Shown here one piece after another: positions 1,387-6,094 of a stretch of 64,000 nt of DNA. This DNA is from Tsuneonella rigui (GTDB taxonomy: Bacteria; Pseudomonadota; Alphaproteobacteria; Sphingomonadales; Sphingomonadaceae): NCBI RefSeq assembly GCF_003958625.1, contig NZ_RSEL01000015.1:62001-126000 (forward strand), written 5' to 3'. The position numbers and the translations under genes were made by a program. The notes under the pieces are model-generated. The model did not search any database, was not told where the DNA came from, and saw nothing but the letters and a program-made list of their open reading frames with translations. Position 1 is the stretch's first letter. Each line of letters begins with the position of its first letter.

Positions 1387-1641
1387 TCAGATCACCCAAT
1401 CCACCGTCGAGAGTTGGGTAACCGCCTGACCCTTCGCGCGGCGCTGCTCGACCATGATGCGGTTGAGCCGCTGGATCGTGTCGCTCCCCGTGGTCACGCA
1501 CCACCCCGGCACCACTGCGTGGACCAGCGCGCACATCCCGCCGCGAATCATCGTCAGGCCGAAGCGCGAGGCGACGCCGAAATGCTCGGCATAGGTCTCG
1601 TCGACCGAGCGCGGGTGGTCGATGAACAGGCGGCTGATCAT
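1387..1641 (-). CDS. DUF6356 family small protein, 84 aa
   Basis: A short protein beginning MISRLFIDHPRSVDETY, with a central hydrophobic segment (GLTMIRGGMCALVHAVVPGW) that probably crosses the membrane once, followed by a basic helix. The start, the HPRSV motif and the VHAVVPGWC core match, from memory, the DUF6356 family found mainly in sphingomonads. No biochemical role is known. The ATG at 1641 is preceded by GGAG at good spacing, which favours it over the longer frame. It is divergent from the phosphatase gene across about 130 bases and is followed after eight bases by the alpha/beta hydrolase. Confidence 0.75.
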   Translation of the reverse strand: MISRLFIDHPRSVDETYAEHFGVASRFGLTMIRGGMCALVHAVVPGWCVTTGSDTIQRLNRIMVEQRRAKGQAVTQLSTVDWVI

Positions 1642-1771
1642 GGCGGGCTCCGGGTTGGCGGCTACGGCGGCCTTAACAAATTGCGCGTGCGCTATCCAAG
1701 CGGCCGATAAGCGCTTGTCACCGGCGCGCAACCGGCGTCATCTACGGTCCGTTCGAGAGAGGGATCGCTTC

Positions 1772-3418
1772 ATGCCGCCAACACCGCCGCCATTGCCGAT
1801 GACCGCCGTCGATCGCCGCAGCCTGCTGACGGGCGGCATGCTCGGGCTGGGCTTGATCGCCGCCCCACTCAGCGCGCAGGCGGCGAGCGGCTTCACCCAC
1901 GGCGTGGCGAGCGGAGAGCCGTCGGCGCGCTCGGTGCTGCTGTGGACGCGCTATGCCGGTAAGCAGGACGCGAAGCTGCGCTGGGAAGTATCCGAGAGCG
2001 CCGACTTCGCGCATATTGCCAGCGGGGGTAACGCGGTTGCCGCGCCCGCGCACGACTGGTGCACCAAAGCGGTCGCCACGGGGCTCAAACCTGCCACCTG
2101 GTACCACTACCGTTTCATCGCGCCCGACGGGACGATCTCGGGCGTCGGCCGCACCCGCACCCTCCCGGAAGGATCGACCGATCGCTTCCGCATGGCGGTG
2201 TTCAGCTGCGCCAACCTCGGTTTCGGCTACTTCAATTCCTACGCGCACGCGGCCGACGCCGACGCGTTCGAGCTCGCCGTGCACCTCGGCGATTACCTCT
2301 ACGAATACGACCACGACACCTACCCGACCGAAAAGCAGCGCGTCGCGGACCGCACCCCGCTGCCGCTGACCGAAGCGGTGCACCTCGCCGATTACCGCCA
2401 ACGTTACGCCAGCTACCGCAGCGATCCCGACCTGCTGCGACTCCACCAGATGTACCCGATGATCGCGGTGTTCGACGATCACGAGACCGCCAACGACACC
2501 TGGAAGGGCGGGGCGGAGAACCACACGCCCTCGACGGAGGGCCCGTGGGACGCGCGCAAGAAGGCGGCCATGCAGGCCCGCAGCGAGTGGCTGCCGATCA
2601 GCGACGAGCCCTGGGCGCGCTACGATGTCGGCGATCTCGCCACGCTGTTCCGGCTCGAAACCCGCCTCACCGCGCGCGACAAGCCATTCGATCTGAGCGG
2701 TGTCGTCAAGGGCATGGCGCCCGCGCAGGCGGAAGCGGCGCTCAAGGCGTTCCACGACGGCGCCTACATGGACGCCAAGCGGACGATGATGGGCCCAGCG
2801 CAGGAGCAGTGGCTGGCCGACGGGATGAAGGCTTCGGTCAAGTCGGGCCGCAAGTGGCAAGTGCTGGTGCAGCAGGTGGTGATGGGCTCGGTCCTGCTGC
2901 CCCCGACGGTCTCGCTCGATCTCGATCCCGAGGTGGAAAAACTCGCCGCCTCGCGCATGGCGGGGCTGCTGGCAGCGACTGCGGCGGGCATCCCGTTCAA
3001 CATGGATTCGTGGGACGGCTATCCGGCCGCGCGCAAGCGGCTGCTCGATTCGGCGCGCGCGGCGGAGGCCAATCTCGTCGTGCTGTCGGGCGACAGCCAT
3101 AATGCCTGGGCCTTCGAGCATCCGGGGGCCGGCGTCGAGTTCGGCGGGACTTCGGTCACCTCGCCGGGCGCGGAAAGCTACCTGCCGTTCGTCAAGGCGA
3201 CCACCTTGGCGAAGGCGCTCATCGGCGCGAACGGCGCGCTCGAGTGGTGCGACACCTCGCGGCGCGGGTACATGGCGGTCGAGCTGACGCCGCAGAAAGC
3301 CGCGTGTGCGTGGCGCTTTGCCGATACGGTCAAGCGGCGCGATCCCGCGCACAGCGATACCACCCGCCTCGCGGCGAACCACGGGGCGCGCGCATTCACC
3401 GAAGGGTTGAGCGGTTAA
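1772..3418 (+). CDS. phoD: PhoD-like alkaline phosphatase D family protein, Tat-exported
   Basis: A 548-residue metallophosphoesterase of the PhoD family, which hydrolyses phosphomono- or diesters outside the cytoplasm. The N terminus carries a twin-arginine signal (DRRSLLTGGMLGLGL) ending at a probable SAQA-A cleavage site. An N-terminal PhoD Ig-like domain begins at FTHGVASGEPSARSVLLWTRY. Metal-site motifs follow: HLGDYLYEYD near residue 172, FDDHETANDTW near 233 and LSGDSHNAW near 440. The ATG at 1772 was chosen because GAGAGGGA precedes it at good spacing; an internal ATG at 1799 is a less likely alternative. The stop codon lies inside the -35/-10 spacer of the downstream thrS promoter. 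Function rests on family motifs; the natural substrate is unknown. Confidence 0.88.
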   Translation: MPPTPPPLPMTAVDRRSLLTGGMLGLGLIAAPLSAQAASGFTHGVASGEPSARSVLLWTRYAGKQDAKLRWEVSESADFAHIASGGNAVAAPAHDWCTKAVATGLKPATWYHYRFIAPDGTISGVGRTRTLPEGSTDRFRMAVFSCANLGFGYFNSYAHAADADAFELAVHLGDYLYEYDHDTYPTEKQRVADRTPLPLTEAVHLADYRQRYASYRSDPDLLRLHQMYPMIAVFDDHETANDTWKGGAENHTPSTEGPWDARKKAAMQARSEWLPISDEPWARYDVGDLATLFRLETRLTARDKPFDLSGVVKGMAPAQAEAALKAFHDGAYMDAKRTMMGPAQEQWLADGMKASVKSGRKWQVLVQQVVMGSVLLPPTVSLDLDPEVEKLAASRMAGLLAATAAGIPFNMDSWDGYPAARKRLLDSARAAEANLVVLSGDSHNAWAFEHPGAGVEFGGTSVTSPGAESYLPFVKATTLAKALIGANGALEWCDTSRRGYMAVELTPQKAACAWRFADTVKRRDPAHSDTTRLAANHGARAFTEGLSG

Positions 3419-3435
3419 CCTCTCGCGCTTATAAG
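3407..3435 (+). promoter_or_regulatory. sigma70-type promoter for the thrS leader
   Basis: A -35 hexamer TTGAGC (3407-3412) and a -10 hexamer TATAAG (3430-3435) are separated by exactly 17 bases. This is the best housekeeping-type promoter I noticed in the window. Expected initiation is around 3441-3445, on or just before the ATG of the leader peptide. The -35 box overlaps the last codons of the phosphatase gene. Confidence 0.6.
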
Positions 3436-3444
3436 CCACCCCGG

Positions 3445-3516
3445 ATGCAGCACCAACGCGCCCTGACTACGACTACTACCACCCCGGTCCTCCGGGGGCG
3501 GTCGGTCGCGGTCTGA
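3445..3516 (+). CDS. threonine-rich leader peptide upstream of thrS, 23 aa
   Basis: A short ORF that starts at ATG 3445 and stops at TGA 3514-3516. Codons 8 to 13 are six consecutive threonine codons (ACT ACG ACT ACT ACC ACC, 3466-3483). No Shine-Dalgarno sequence precedes the ATG, and the predicted transcription start lies only zero to four bases upstream, so translation would be nearly leaderless, as reported for the Sinorhizobium trpL leader peptide. The Thr run ends one base into the first hairpin of a GC-rich structured leader. A run of the cognate codons placed this way in front of threonyl-tRNA synthetase is the hallmark of ribosome-mediated attenuation. The coding call rests on this context, since the peptide is too short for homology. 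Confidence 0.72.
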   Translation: MQHQRALTTTTTTPVLRGRSVAV

Positions 3517-3589
3517 ACCCGCGCCGCCGCCGCCCGGCTTCGGGCGGCAGGCGTCATCCTCCCCAAGCCGGTCCACTTCCCTGACGCCT
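3482..3589 (+). promoter_or_regulatory. putative threonine attenuator (alternative hairpins) in the thrS leader
   Basis: Segment 1 (CCCCGG, 3482-3487) pairs with segment 2 (CCGGGG, 3492-3497) around a 4-base loop directly after the Thr codons. Segment 3 (GCCGCCCG, 3529-3536) pairs perfectly with segment 4 (CGGGCGGC, 3541-3548) around GCTT. Segment 2 extended (GGGCGG) is also complementary to CCGCCC within segment 3, so 1:2 plus 3:4 and 2:3 are mutually exclusive. A further arm pair, AGGCGTCA (3549-3556) with TGACGCCT (3582-3589), is followed by two more Ts. No stem has a long U tract, so the terminator is either this last weak candidate, Rho-dependent, or control acts by another route. Pairings were read by eye, not folded computationally. 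Confidence 0.5.
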
Positions 3590-3647
3590 TTCGGCGCCGC
3601 GCCCTTTCTGCCATGGGGCGCCGCGCAAGCGACGGACGGATTTGAGA

Positions 3648-5648
3648 ATGAGCGAGCTTCTGAAGATCAGCCTGCCCGATGGCTCGGTGCGCGAGATGCC
3701 GCGGGGCAGCACCCCGGCGGACGTCGCCGCCGCGATCGGCCCGGGCCTCGCCAAGGCCGCGCTCGCCGCGCGCGTGGACGGAGAGCTGCGCGATCTCAAC
3801 CGCCCGTTCGAGGGCGATGCGCAAGTCGCCCTGGTCACCTCGCGCGATGAGGCAGACGCGCTCGAACTCGCGCGCCACGATTACGCCCATGTGCTCGCCG
3901 AGGCGATCCAGTCGCTGTGGCCGGGCACGCAGATCACCTTCGGCCCGGCGACCGACGACGGGTTCTACTACGACGTCATGGCGCCGGACAGCCGCGCGCC
4001 CTTCTCGGTCGACGACCTGCCGGCGATCGAGGAGGAAATGCGCCGCATCATCCGCGCCGACAAGCCGCTCACGCGCGAAGTCTGGTCCCGCCAGCAACTG
4101 ATCGACAAGTGGCAGGCCGACGGCGAGCGCTTCAAGGCCGAGTGGGCCGCCGAACTGCCCGAGGGCGAGGAGCTGACGGTCTATCGATCCGGCGAAGATT
4201 GGCTCGACATGTGCCGCGGGCCGCACCTCGCCAGCACGGGCAAGCTCGATCCGCAAGCGTTCAAGCTGACGCGCGTCGCCGGCGCCTACTGGCGCGGCGA
4301 TCAGAAGAACGCGCAGCTGACGCGCATCTACGGCACCGGCTGGCTCAACAAGAAGCAATTGGACGCTCACCTCCACCGGCTGGAAGAGGCCGCCAAGCGC
4401 GACCACCGCAAGCTCGGCAAGGAGATGGACCTGTTCCACCTCCAGGAAGAGGCGCACGGTAGCGTCTTCTGGCACCCGCAGGGCTACAAGATCTGGCGCG
4501 AGCTGGAGGCCTACATGCGCCGCCGGCTCGATGCCGCGGGCTATGTCGAGGTGAAGACGCCGCAGGTGATGGACGCCCGCCAGTGGGAGAAGTCCGGCCA
4601 CTGGGGCAAGTACCGCGAGAACATGTTCGTCATCCCCGACGAGGTGCCCAACACCGAGGACGAGGGCCCGCTGGTGTCGGACGACGCCGAGTGGATGGCG
4701 CTGAAGCCGATGAACTGCCCGGCGCACGTACTGATCTTCAAGCAGGGCATCACCAGCTACCGCGACCTGCCGCTGCGCATGGCCGAGTTCGGCTGCTGCC
4801 ACCGCAACGAGCCGCATGGCGCGCTCCACGGCATCATGCGGGTGCGCCAGTTCACGCAGGACGACGCGCACATCTTCGTGCGCGAGGACCAGTTGGTCGA
4901 CGAGGTGCGCGACTTCTGCGACCTGCTCGACAGCGTCTACAAGGATCTCGGTTTCGACCAGTACGCGATCAAGCTCGCGCTGCGGCCCGAGAAGCGGTTC
5001 GGGTCGGACGAGATGTGGGACCAGGCCGAGCAGGAGCTGCGCGACGCAGTCGCCGCGTCCGGCCGGGCGACCGAGGAGTTCGGGTGGGAAGAGCTGCCGG
5101 GCGAGGGCGCGTTCTATGCGCCGAAGCTCGAATTCCACCTGACCGACGCGATCGGGCGGACGTGGCAGGTGGGCACGATCCAGTCGGACCGCGTGCTGCC
5201 CGAGCGGCTGGACGCCAGTTACATCGGCGAAGACGGTGTTCGGCACCGTCCGGTCATGCTGCACCGCGCTGTTCTCGGCACTTTCGAGCGCTTCATTGGC
5301 ATCCTGATCGAGCATTTTGCCGGCAAGCTGCCGATCTGGCTCGCGCCGACGCAGGCGGTGGTGGCGACGATCGTCTCCGATGCGGACGACTACGCGAACG
5401 AGGTGCTGGCCAAGCTCGCCGCCGCCGGAATCCGCGCCGAAAGCGACCTCCGCAACGAGAAGATCAACTACAAGGTGCGCGATCACTCGCTGAAGAAAGT
5501 CCCGCACCTGCTGGTGGTCGGCAAGCGCGAGGCGGAGGAGGGCACTGTCGCCCTGCGCACGCTCGGCGCGGAGCACCAGAAGGTCATGCCGCTCGACGAG
5601 GCAATTGCATGGCTCAGGGCAGAGGCGACCCCGCCCGATCTGCGATGA
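3648..5648 (+). CDS. thrS: threonyl-tRNA synthetase
   Basis: This class II synthetase charges tRNA-Thr and edits Ser-tRNA-Thr. The 666 residues match the usual bacterial length. Domain order: TGS domain (about 1-65), SAD editing domain ([12 protein letters not shown] and MCRGPHL supplying the editing His and Cys residues), class II catalytic core, and a C-terminal anticodon-binding domain from about residue 565. The catalytic zinc ligands appear in [15 protein letters not shown] or the preceding DDAH stretch, and VMLHRA. I start at ATG 3648 rather than the in-frame TTG at 3642. The stop overlaps the ATG of the next gene (ATGA), so the GNAT gene is probably translationally coupled. Expression is probably controlled by the Thr-codon leader upstream. 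Confidence 0.98.
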
Positions 5649-6094
5649 ACATTCGTGCCGGCTCCGAGGCGGACGTCCCTCGCGCGCTGGAAATCTGCCG
5701 CGCGGCGGTCGACGCCACCCATGGGTTCCTGACGCTCGAGGACCGGGTCGAGATCGATCGCATGGTCGCCGAGGAATTTCTGCCGAACGTCGATTTGTGG
5801 CTGGTCGACGATGACCAGGGCCGCGCGGTGGGGTTCCTGGTCATGGACGGCGAGATGATCGACGCGCTGTTCGTCGATCCGGCGGTGCACGGCCAGGGCT
5901 TCGGCACTGCTTTGCTGGTGCATGCGCTGACGCTCGCACCCGGTGCGCTGGTCGAAGCGAGCGAGCAGGCGACCAATGCGCTGCCGTTCTACGAGGCGCG
6001 CGGCTTCGTCAGAATTGGACGCTCCGAGACGGACCCGCAGGGACGGCCCTATCCGCTCGTCCTGCTGCGCCACATGGGCGCGGCACTGAACTAG
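5645..6094 (+). CDS. GNAT family N-acetyltransferase, 149 aa
   Basis: A single GNAT domain covers the protein: beta strands with [18 protein letters not shown], then the acetyl-CoA-binding loop [14 protein letters not shown] (Q/RxxGxG/A type) near residue 85, and a C-terminal [15 protein letters not shown] segment typical of the fold. It resembles YjaB/PA4534-type acetyltransferases. The ATG overlaps the thrS stop (ATGA), which points to coupled translation and shared control by the threonine leader. Whether that coupling is functional or only convenient packing is unknown, and so is the acceptor substrate. Confidence 0.85.

Follow-up and report, generated by a model that had tools for sequence, protein, structure and literature searches.

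A probable threonine-codon attenuator before thrS of Tsuneonella rigui and other sphingomonads, with covarying alternative helices and no U-tract

The window considered here is a stretch of 64,000 nucleotides of the Tsuneonella rigui contig NZ_RSEL01000015.1 (assembly GCF_003958625.1, positions 62,001 to 126,000). It contains thrS, the gene of threonyl-tRNA synthetase (ThrRS), preceded by a PhoD-like phosphatase gene and followed by a GNAT acetyltransferase gene (Table 1). A reading made from the sequence alone had proposed that the GNAT gene is coupled to thrS. Indeed, the two genes overlap in an ATGA and both are confirmed by Pfam domains, so the GNAT gene would share the control of thrS. 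The same sequence-only reading had described an ORF of 23 codons, six consecutive ones for threonine, in front of thrS; this leader ORF is present, and 131 nt separate its end from the thrS start (3648). Runs of six ACN triplets are found genome-wide in 9 matches (some overlapping, the leader included) as against 16 for the reversed pattern, which means that a six-threonine run is by itself not rare in this genome. The case from the single sequence is modest, and it is conservation across species that raises the leader above chance.

Table 1. Features of the thrS leader region and its neighbouring genes (positions in the window)
Feature	Position	Strand	Remarks
PhoD-like phosphatase gene	1622-3418		upstream of the leader
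Candidate promoter P1	3407-3435	+	-35 TTGAGC 3407-3412, 17-nt spacer, -10 TATAAG 3430-3435; overlaps the end of the PhoD-like gene
Leader ORF	3445-3516	+	23 codons and stop, product MQHQRALTTTTTTPVLRGRSVAV; six consecutive Thr codons at 3466-3483
Segment 1	3478-3487	+	overlaps the last two Thr codons; 1:2 in predicted fold
Segment 2	3492-3502	+	partner of 1, or (3492-3501) of 3
Helix s:s'	3507-3511 with 3519-3523	+	encloses the leader stop UGA 3514-3516; apical part of the 2:3 antiterminator; predicted fold
Segment 3	3527-3537	+	partner of 2 (antiterminator) or of 4
Hairpin 3:4	3529-3536 with 3541-3548	+	GC-rich, without a U-tract behind it; predicted fold
Helix 4:5	3536-3547 with 3558-3569	+	alternative to 3:4; covariation
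Helix b:b'	GGCGUCA 3550-3556 with UGACGCC 3582-3588	+	interleaved with 4:5; covariation
Module adjoining thrS, candidate P2	3588-3622	+	CTTTCG, 16 nt, GCCATG; inverted repeat c:d; by eye from alignments
thrS, threonyl-tRNA synthetase	3648-5648	+	Pfam TGS, tRNA_SAD, tRNA-synt_2b, HGTP_anticodon
GNAT acetyltransferase gene	5645-6094	+	Pfam GNAT domains; start overlaps the thrS stop (ATGA, 5645-5648)

A leader was called where a short ORF with at least 4 threonines in 8 residues lay no more than 280 nt from thrS. By this rule 54 of 117 fetched sphingomonad thrS loci have one, a biased frequency, as 80 named loci of the sample were the top ones among at least 586 and the others, too, are best matches. 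The leaders are 19-27 codons long and begin with ATG in 53 of the 54 (GTG in L053). They hold 4-12 threonines in total (at least 5 in 53 of the 54), with a longest run of 3-8, counts that are conditioned by the selection on threonine content. In all, 378 of 415 ACN triplets stand in the leader frame and ACC, ACT, ACG and ACA are all used. The regulatory threonine codons are thereby kept between species, synonymous changes included; persistence of the run in related genomes had been named beforehand as a check on the proposal. It remains conceivable in principle, since six-ACN runs are not rare in the genome, that the leader is a chance threonine-rich frame in GC-rich DNA. However, its position, frame, length and pairings are conserved over many genera, and we give this explanation practically no weight.

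A leader model of 159 positions has a single match in each of 91 genomes, out of 296 searched from the order (E <= 0.01; 86 of them with E <= 7.2e-7), in a search whose stricter filters lose weak matches. At all of the 30 best matches, and at L168, thrS follows directly in the same orientation. Among the five weakest, those in G301, G393 and G057 precede a thrS with an eroded or lost leader, and those in G055 and G175 lie in fetched stretches that hold no thrS. In the wider class 6 genomes out of 289 match: three strong ones are members of the family, and the three others are weak (E 0.005-0.009), with no thrS in the stretches fetched.

Two further loci, L091 and L112, have the leader in altered form, and 61 of the 117 thrS loci show none, including L002 and also L029, which was counted though only 101 nt upstream were available. 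Leader control is therefore dispensable. When 56 of the 117 loci are labelled as leader loci (L091 and L112 included) on their ThrRS tree, the label must change at least 14 times. One large clade (support 88) has it in 40 of its 42 rows, and it turns up again among loci of Novosphingobium, Blastomonas, Sphingopyxis, Sphingorhabdus and Sphingomonas. We read the leader as an old trait that has often been lost; alternatively, it may have been transferred.

In the window a promoter-like hexamer pair, P1, ends 9 nt upstream of the leader ATG. Over the 54 leader loci, the best 17-nt-spaced hexamers within 45 nt before the ATG score 7.4 of 12 on average, compared with 5.3 in shuffled flanks, and a score of at least 7/12 is reached by 85% of the loci versus 10% of shuffles. 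The pair ends 6-8 nt upstream of the ATG in 36 of the 54. A strict promoter scan of 3200-3800 reported no site, neither P1 nor the thrS-proximal P2. A purine-rich box (AGG or GGA) stands before the leader start in 5 of 54 loci and before thrS in 33 of 54, counts taken over unequal windows of 9 and 12 nt, respectively. Because the promoter-like pair ends close to the ATG and the purine-rich box is seldom found there, the leader is probably translated leaderless, from the 5' end of the RNA.

Both hairpins that the sequence-only reading had drawn, 1:2 (3482-3497) and 3:4 (3529-3548), are present in the predicted folds, together with the stop-codon helix s:s'. Hairpin 1:2 comprises 3478-3487/3492-3502 with a core at 3482-3487/3492-3497. 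The competing pairing 2:3 (GGGCGG with CCGCCC) is borne out as well and is longer than claimed; as read, it has 10 bp and one bulge and joins 3492-3501 with 3527-3537. Helices 1:2, 2:3 and 3:4 are mutually exclusive, and each is able to form. The overall fold is less telling: the whole leader barely beats its shuffles (z -1.46; 16 of 200 as good), while 3478-3560 fares better (z -2.90; 2 of 200 as good). By eye, the leader stop falls just 3' of segment 2 in the aligned rows, somewhat later in L095. Since segments 4, b, 5 and b' follow each other in interleaved order, 4:5 and b:b' are either mutually exclusive or form a pseudoknot.

On the full alignment RNAalifold returns a mixed structure of 14 pairs because the alternative helices compete. 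Each helix was therefore tested apart by swapping partners, the duplex energy of a species' own arms being compared with that of arms exchanged between species. Leader set A1 leaves out L010, L048, L052, L053 and three near copies, and set A2 leaves out L078 as well. Relatedness was controlled by a reduced subset and by negative pairs, not by a tree. With 48 sequences, own arms pair better than swapped ones in 4:5 (-17.5 versus -14.1 kcal/mol, z -10.6), b:b' (-10.8 versus -8.9 kcal/mol, z -9.2) and 2:3 (-20.5 versus -18.9 kcal/mol, z -5.7). A subset of 36 sequences below 68% identity gives z -8.9, -7.2 and -4.8 for the same three helices. Helix s:s' reaches z -5.6 (47 sequences), or -4.3 in a 28-sequence subset. 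Covariation of 1:2 is weak (z -2.3 with 48 sequences, -1.8 in the 36-sequence subset). No favourable signal came from the control pairs 1:3, 2:5, 5:b', 1:5 and 4:b' (z -0.6 to +2.3, 48 sequences), nor from b':d, b:d, b:c and 2:c, nor from 2:s', s:3 and s:5.

Counting by columns gives a similar picture for 2:3 and 4:5, where 9 of 19 pairs are changed on both sides (5 of 9 in 4:5). Here 32 cells are changed on both sides compared with 11.2 in shuffles, none of 500 of which scored as high. The arms of 3:4 are nearly invariant (swap test z -0.4, 48 sequences). A single pair changes on both sides, from G-C to A-U, in 5 of 47 sequences; shuffles average 1.9 such double-changed cells, and 8 of 500 are as high. 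Neither the number of covarying 3:4 pairs nor the pair types exceed shuffles in these 47 sequences. As drawn, however, 2:3 has a bulge and 4:5 a mismatch at the changed pair, which thus supports 3:4 itself. The compensatory changes that had been called for are accordingly strong in 2:3, weak in 1:2 and confined to one pair in 3:4.

A profile of the 3-4-b-5 part alone, covering neither the leader ORF nor 1:2, was run on all loci fetched. A threonine-rich ORF lies just upstream at 44 of its 45 training places and at all 27 others (25 with E <= 1e-3), a result that is partly circular: the training rows are threonine-selected leaders, 22 of the outside places (L140-L168) and L185 had come in through model R1, of which the threonine codons are a part, L003, L005 and L016 duplicate training rows exactly or nearly so, and L112 is the sole outside place fetched by thrS alone.

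The covariation also bears on the C-terminus of the leader peptide. Many leaders end in RGRxVAx, and it could be imagined that the peptide itself halts the ribosome through RGRxVA before the stop, the leader being an arrest peptide and not a threonine sensor. Yet RGRxVA is encoded by the bases of segments 2 and s; these covary with 3 and s', so that RNA pairing accounts for the motif. An arrest peptide would also leave the threonine run unexplained, and we regard it as very unlikely.

Comparison of the sequences supports the ORF, its threonine codons and the pairings 2:3, s:s', 4:5 and b:b'. The logic of ribosome-mediated attenuation, as originally suggested for the window, gains support from the conserved threonine run and the covarying alternative helices. 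With high confidence, though from comparative evidence, we propose that the leader is a ribosome-mediated attenuator, in which thrS and the overlapping GNAT gene are controlled according to the supply of charged tRNA-Thr. From here on we infer ribosome stalling, the direction of control (thrS probably goes up when charged tRNA-Thr is scarce) and a preference for termination, U-poor or Rho-assisted, over translation as the output.

The attenuator is envisaged as follows. Transcription from P1 would begin practically at the leader AUG, and the RNA would be translated leaderless. When Thr-tRNA is ample, the ribosome would run to the stop, where it presumably covers roughly 3497-3527. As the apical loop of the 2-s:s'-3 hairpin contains the stop, a finishing ribosome would melt this antiterminator and a ribosome stalled on threonine codons would let it form. 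Once it is melted, 3:4 and then b:b' would form, and expression of thrS from P1 would be lowered. When Thr-tRNA is short, the ribosome would stall on the threonine codons and cover segment 1, leaving 2, s, s' and 3 free. Helix 2:3 with s:s' would form ahead of it, free 4 for pairing with 5 and block 3:4. This state would also block b:b', unless a pseudoknot arises, and RNA polymerase would continue into thrS. The two states would thus be 3:4 with b:b' and 2:3 with 4:5.

The output step is less clear. Classical intrinsic termination at 3:4 is not supported: among 48 leaders no run of more than 4 U occurs between leader stop and thrS (a run of 4 in 9 of the 48), and a scan of 3200-3800 gave no terminator-like site, so 3:4 does not look like an intrinsic terminator with a U-tract. 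Terminator-like sites in 1-40000 are at chance level, and such scans therefore say little about the terminators of this genome. The 9 nt after segment 5 contain 2.5 U on average. In L084, L096, L085 and L014 a 4-nt U-run follows a few nt after segment 5, and 4:5 may act as a weak terminator there. As no U-run exceeds 4 nt, the output could be U-poor termination, Rho-dependent termination or translation; all three remain.

Possibly, Rho is the effector. The C-rich stretch in segment 5 would be a Rho-loading site, exposed by 3:4 with b:b' and hidden by 4:5. Segment 5 is pyrimidine-rich (CCTCCC) and would be masked by 4 in the 2:3 state, and no intrinsic terminator was found; against this, Rho sites are not reliably readable from sequence. 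The translational output, about which we are similarly doubtful, keeps the threonine-codon sensing and assumes that ribosomes load poorly at the thrS start because of b:b' or of the inverted repeat adjoining the gene, an obstacle that the alternative fold would relieve. It is favoured by the absence of a U-tract, by the b' arm, which as read abuts the Shine-Dalgarno sequence of the next ORF in G068 (L172) and G391 (L185), and by the inverted repeat c:d, which covaries and in many rows stands some 20 nt upstream of thrS. However, in the window 59 nt separate the end of b' from the thrS start, segments 2, 4 and 5 have no covarying pairing to the ribosome-binding region of thrS, and c:d persists without an intact leader. 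Moreover, the helix b':c shows no covariation in the swap test, so that a link from the leader to c:d is not supported.

The repeat c:d (swap test z -3.2 with 48 sequences; -3.2 to -3.9 over both sets) belongs to a module between b' and thrS. By eye, it reads CTT(C/T)nn, 16 nt and a GCCATG-like element (3588-3615 in the window), with hardly an indel. At L174 (G301) and L176 (G057), where no intact leader is left, a CTTCAAG...GCCATGG module is kept just before thrS, which makes the module look separable from the attenuator. It was considered as the output hairpin of the attenuator and rejected on account of this persistence. At several non-leader loci CTTGCC or TTGAGG, as read, stands at the module position about 16 nt before GGCAAA or GCTAAG. 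Judged from these patterns, the module is probably a second promoter that would give basal thrS expression, and it probably lies outside the attenuator proper.

Near the thrS start, a hairpin whose loop is conserved recalls another mode of control, in which ThrRS represses its own gene at a tRNA-like operator and the ORF is incidental. The E. coli-type operator carries an anticodon-like loop (NGU) close to the start site. Here the triplet that would imitate the threonine anticodon, UGU, reads UCU in seven rows, the window's own and those of six relatives (L001, L082, L084, L085, L102, L109 and L119), for which an operator of this type was rejected, and the threonine codons and leader pairings are conserved. 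Autoregulation of the E. coli kind is therefore very improbable.

Several loci depart from the common arrangement. L002, from an uncultured Novosphingobium, has the nearest named thrS among the matches listed (89% identity) and no leader; promoter-like TTGAGG and GCTAAG lie near its thrS start, and its thrS mRNA is possibly leaderless. The leader of L091 is altered, with three threonines in the best window. As read, three or two threonine codons remain in the runs of L091 and L175 (G393), the latter a weak match to the model, and these attenuators look to be decaying. L010 (1382-1500) is a compact variant, with the leader ORF and 1:2 followed by the thrS-proximal module; 3, 4, b, 5 and b' are missing. 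At L112 the leader lies about 720 nt before thrS with an ORF in between. Likewise, at L172 (G068) and L185 (G391) an intact threonine leader and thrS are separated by an ORF of about 165 aa (MRYYIDTEFNGTGGQLL...), whose G068 copy gave no Pfam match. There the bases of b:b' differ with complementarity kept (by eye), and thrS has its own CTTGCC-N17-GGCATA element.

We also entertain, tentatively, a fuller version of the attenuator reading. It would lack an intrinsic terminator and relay the position of the ribosome through 1:2, 2-s:s'-3, 3:4, 4:5 and b:b', with a 4:5/b:b' pseudoknot as a possible switch, and in two genomes it would now stand before another gene.

Leader-peptide attenuation of aminoacyl-tRNA synthetase genes is already known from E. 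coli pheM-pheST, in which the synthetase gene lies behind a leader rich in the cognate amino acid, Phe. The sphingomonad leader shares this arrangement and differs from that gammaproteobacterial system in amino acid and in lacking its normal U-tract terminator. With thrL of the E. coli thrABC operon it has in common a threonine-codon leader peptide and mutually exclusive hairpins; unlike it, thrL governs biosynthesis genes, contains Ile codons besides Thr codons and ends in an intrinsic terminator. The rhizobial trpL attenuator is another alphaproteobacterial leader whose ORF begins at or next to the transcription start, in that case with Trp codons, trpE and an intrinsic terminator. Lopatovskaya, Seliverstov and Lyubetsky (2010) reportedly dealt with attenuation of aminoacyl-tRNA operons and may have predicted the present leader. 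Within 2500-4500, Rfam yields six matches up to E 5; none is an enterobacterial thr leader or a T-box and none reaches the gathering score. Among the literature matches listed, taken as titles and abstract openings with few subscription papers, there was no threonine leader before thrS of a sphingomonad or other alphaproteobacterium.

The claim that no such control had been described in sphingomonads thus agrees with what was found, yet a precedent exists elsewhere: in Streptomyces lividans a threonine leader, thrL, before thrS was proposed from RNA-seq (PMC8079986). By that account, thrL-thrS is the closest precedent, with a threonine-codon leader, a leaderless transcript and a hairpin without a uridine-rich stretch; it differs in having two threonine codons in MKRVRPFLETTPGFVPAR and in belonging to another phylum (PMC8079986). 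By comparison of the descriptions, the sphingomonad leaders are set apart from it by their 4-12 threonines and a chain of covarying helices. Helices s:s', 4:5 and b:b' and the promoter-like module next to thrS make up an architecture beyond the earlier description. Altogether, this looks like a known mechanism in a lineage for which no report was found, with extra helices and without the usual terminator.

The leader is a predicted way for sphingomonads to match threonyl-tRNA synthetase to demand, unlike autoregulation in E. coli or the T-box. How an attenuator works without a U-tract is also an open question for the Streptomyces leaders. If the proposal is true, the sphingomonads offer a natural series, kept, eroded, lost or separated from the gene, of an attenuator that functions in this manner, and the covarying helices 4:5 and b:b' would be new handles on how its signal is read out.
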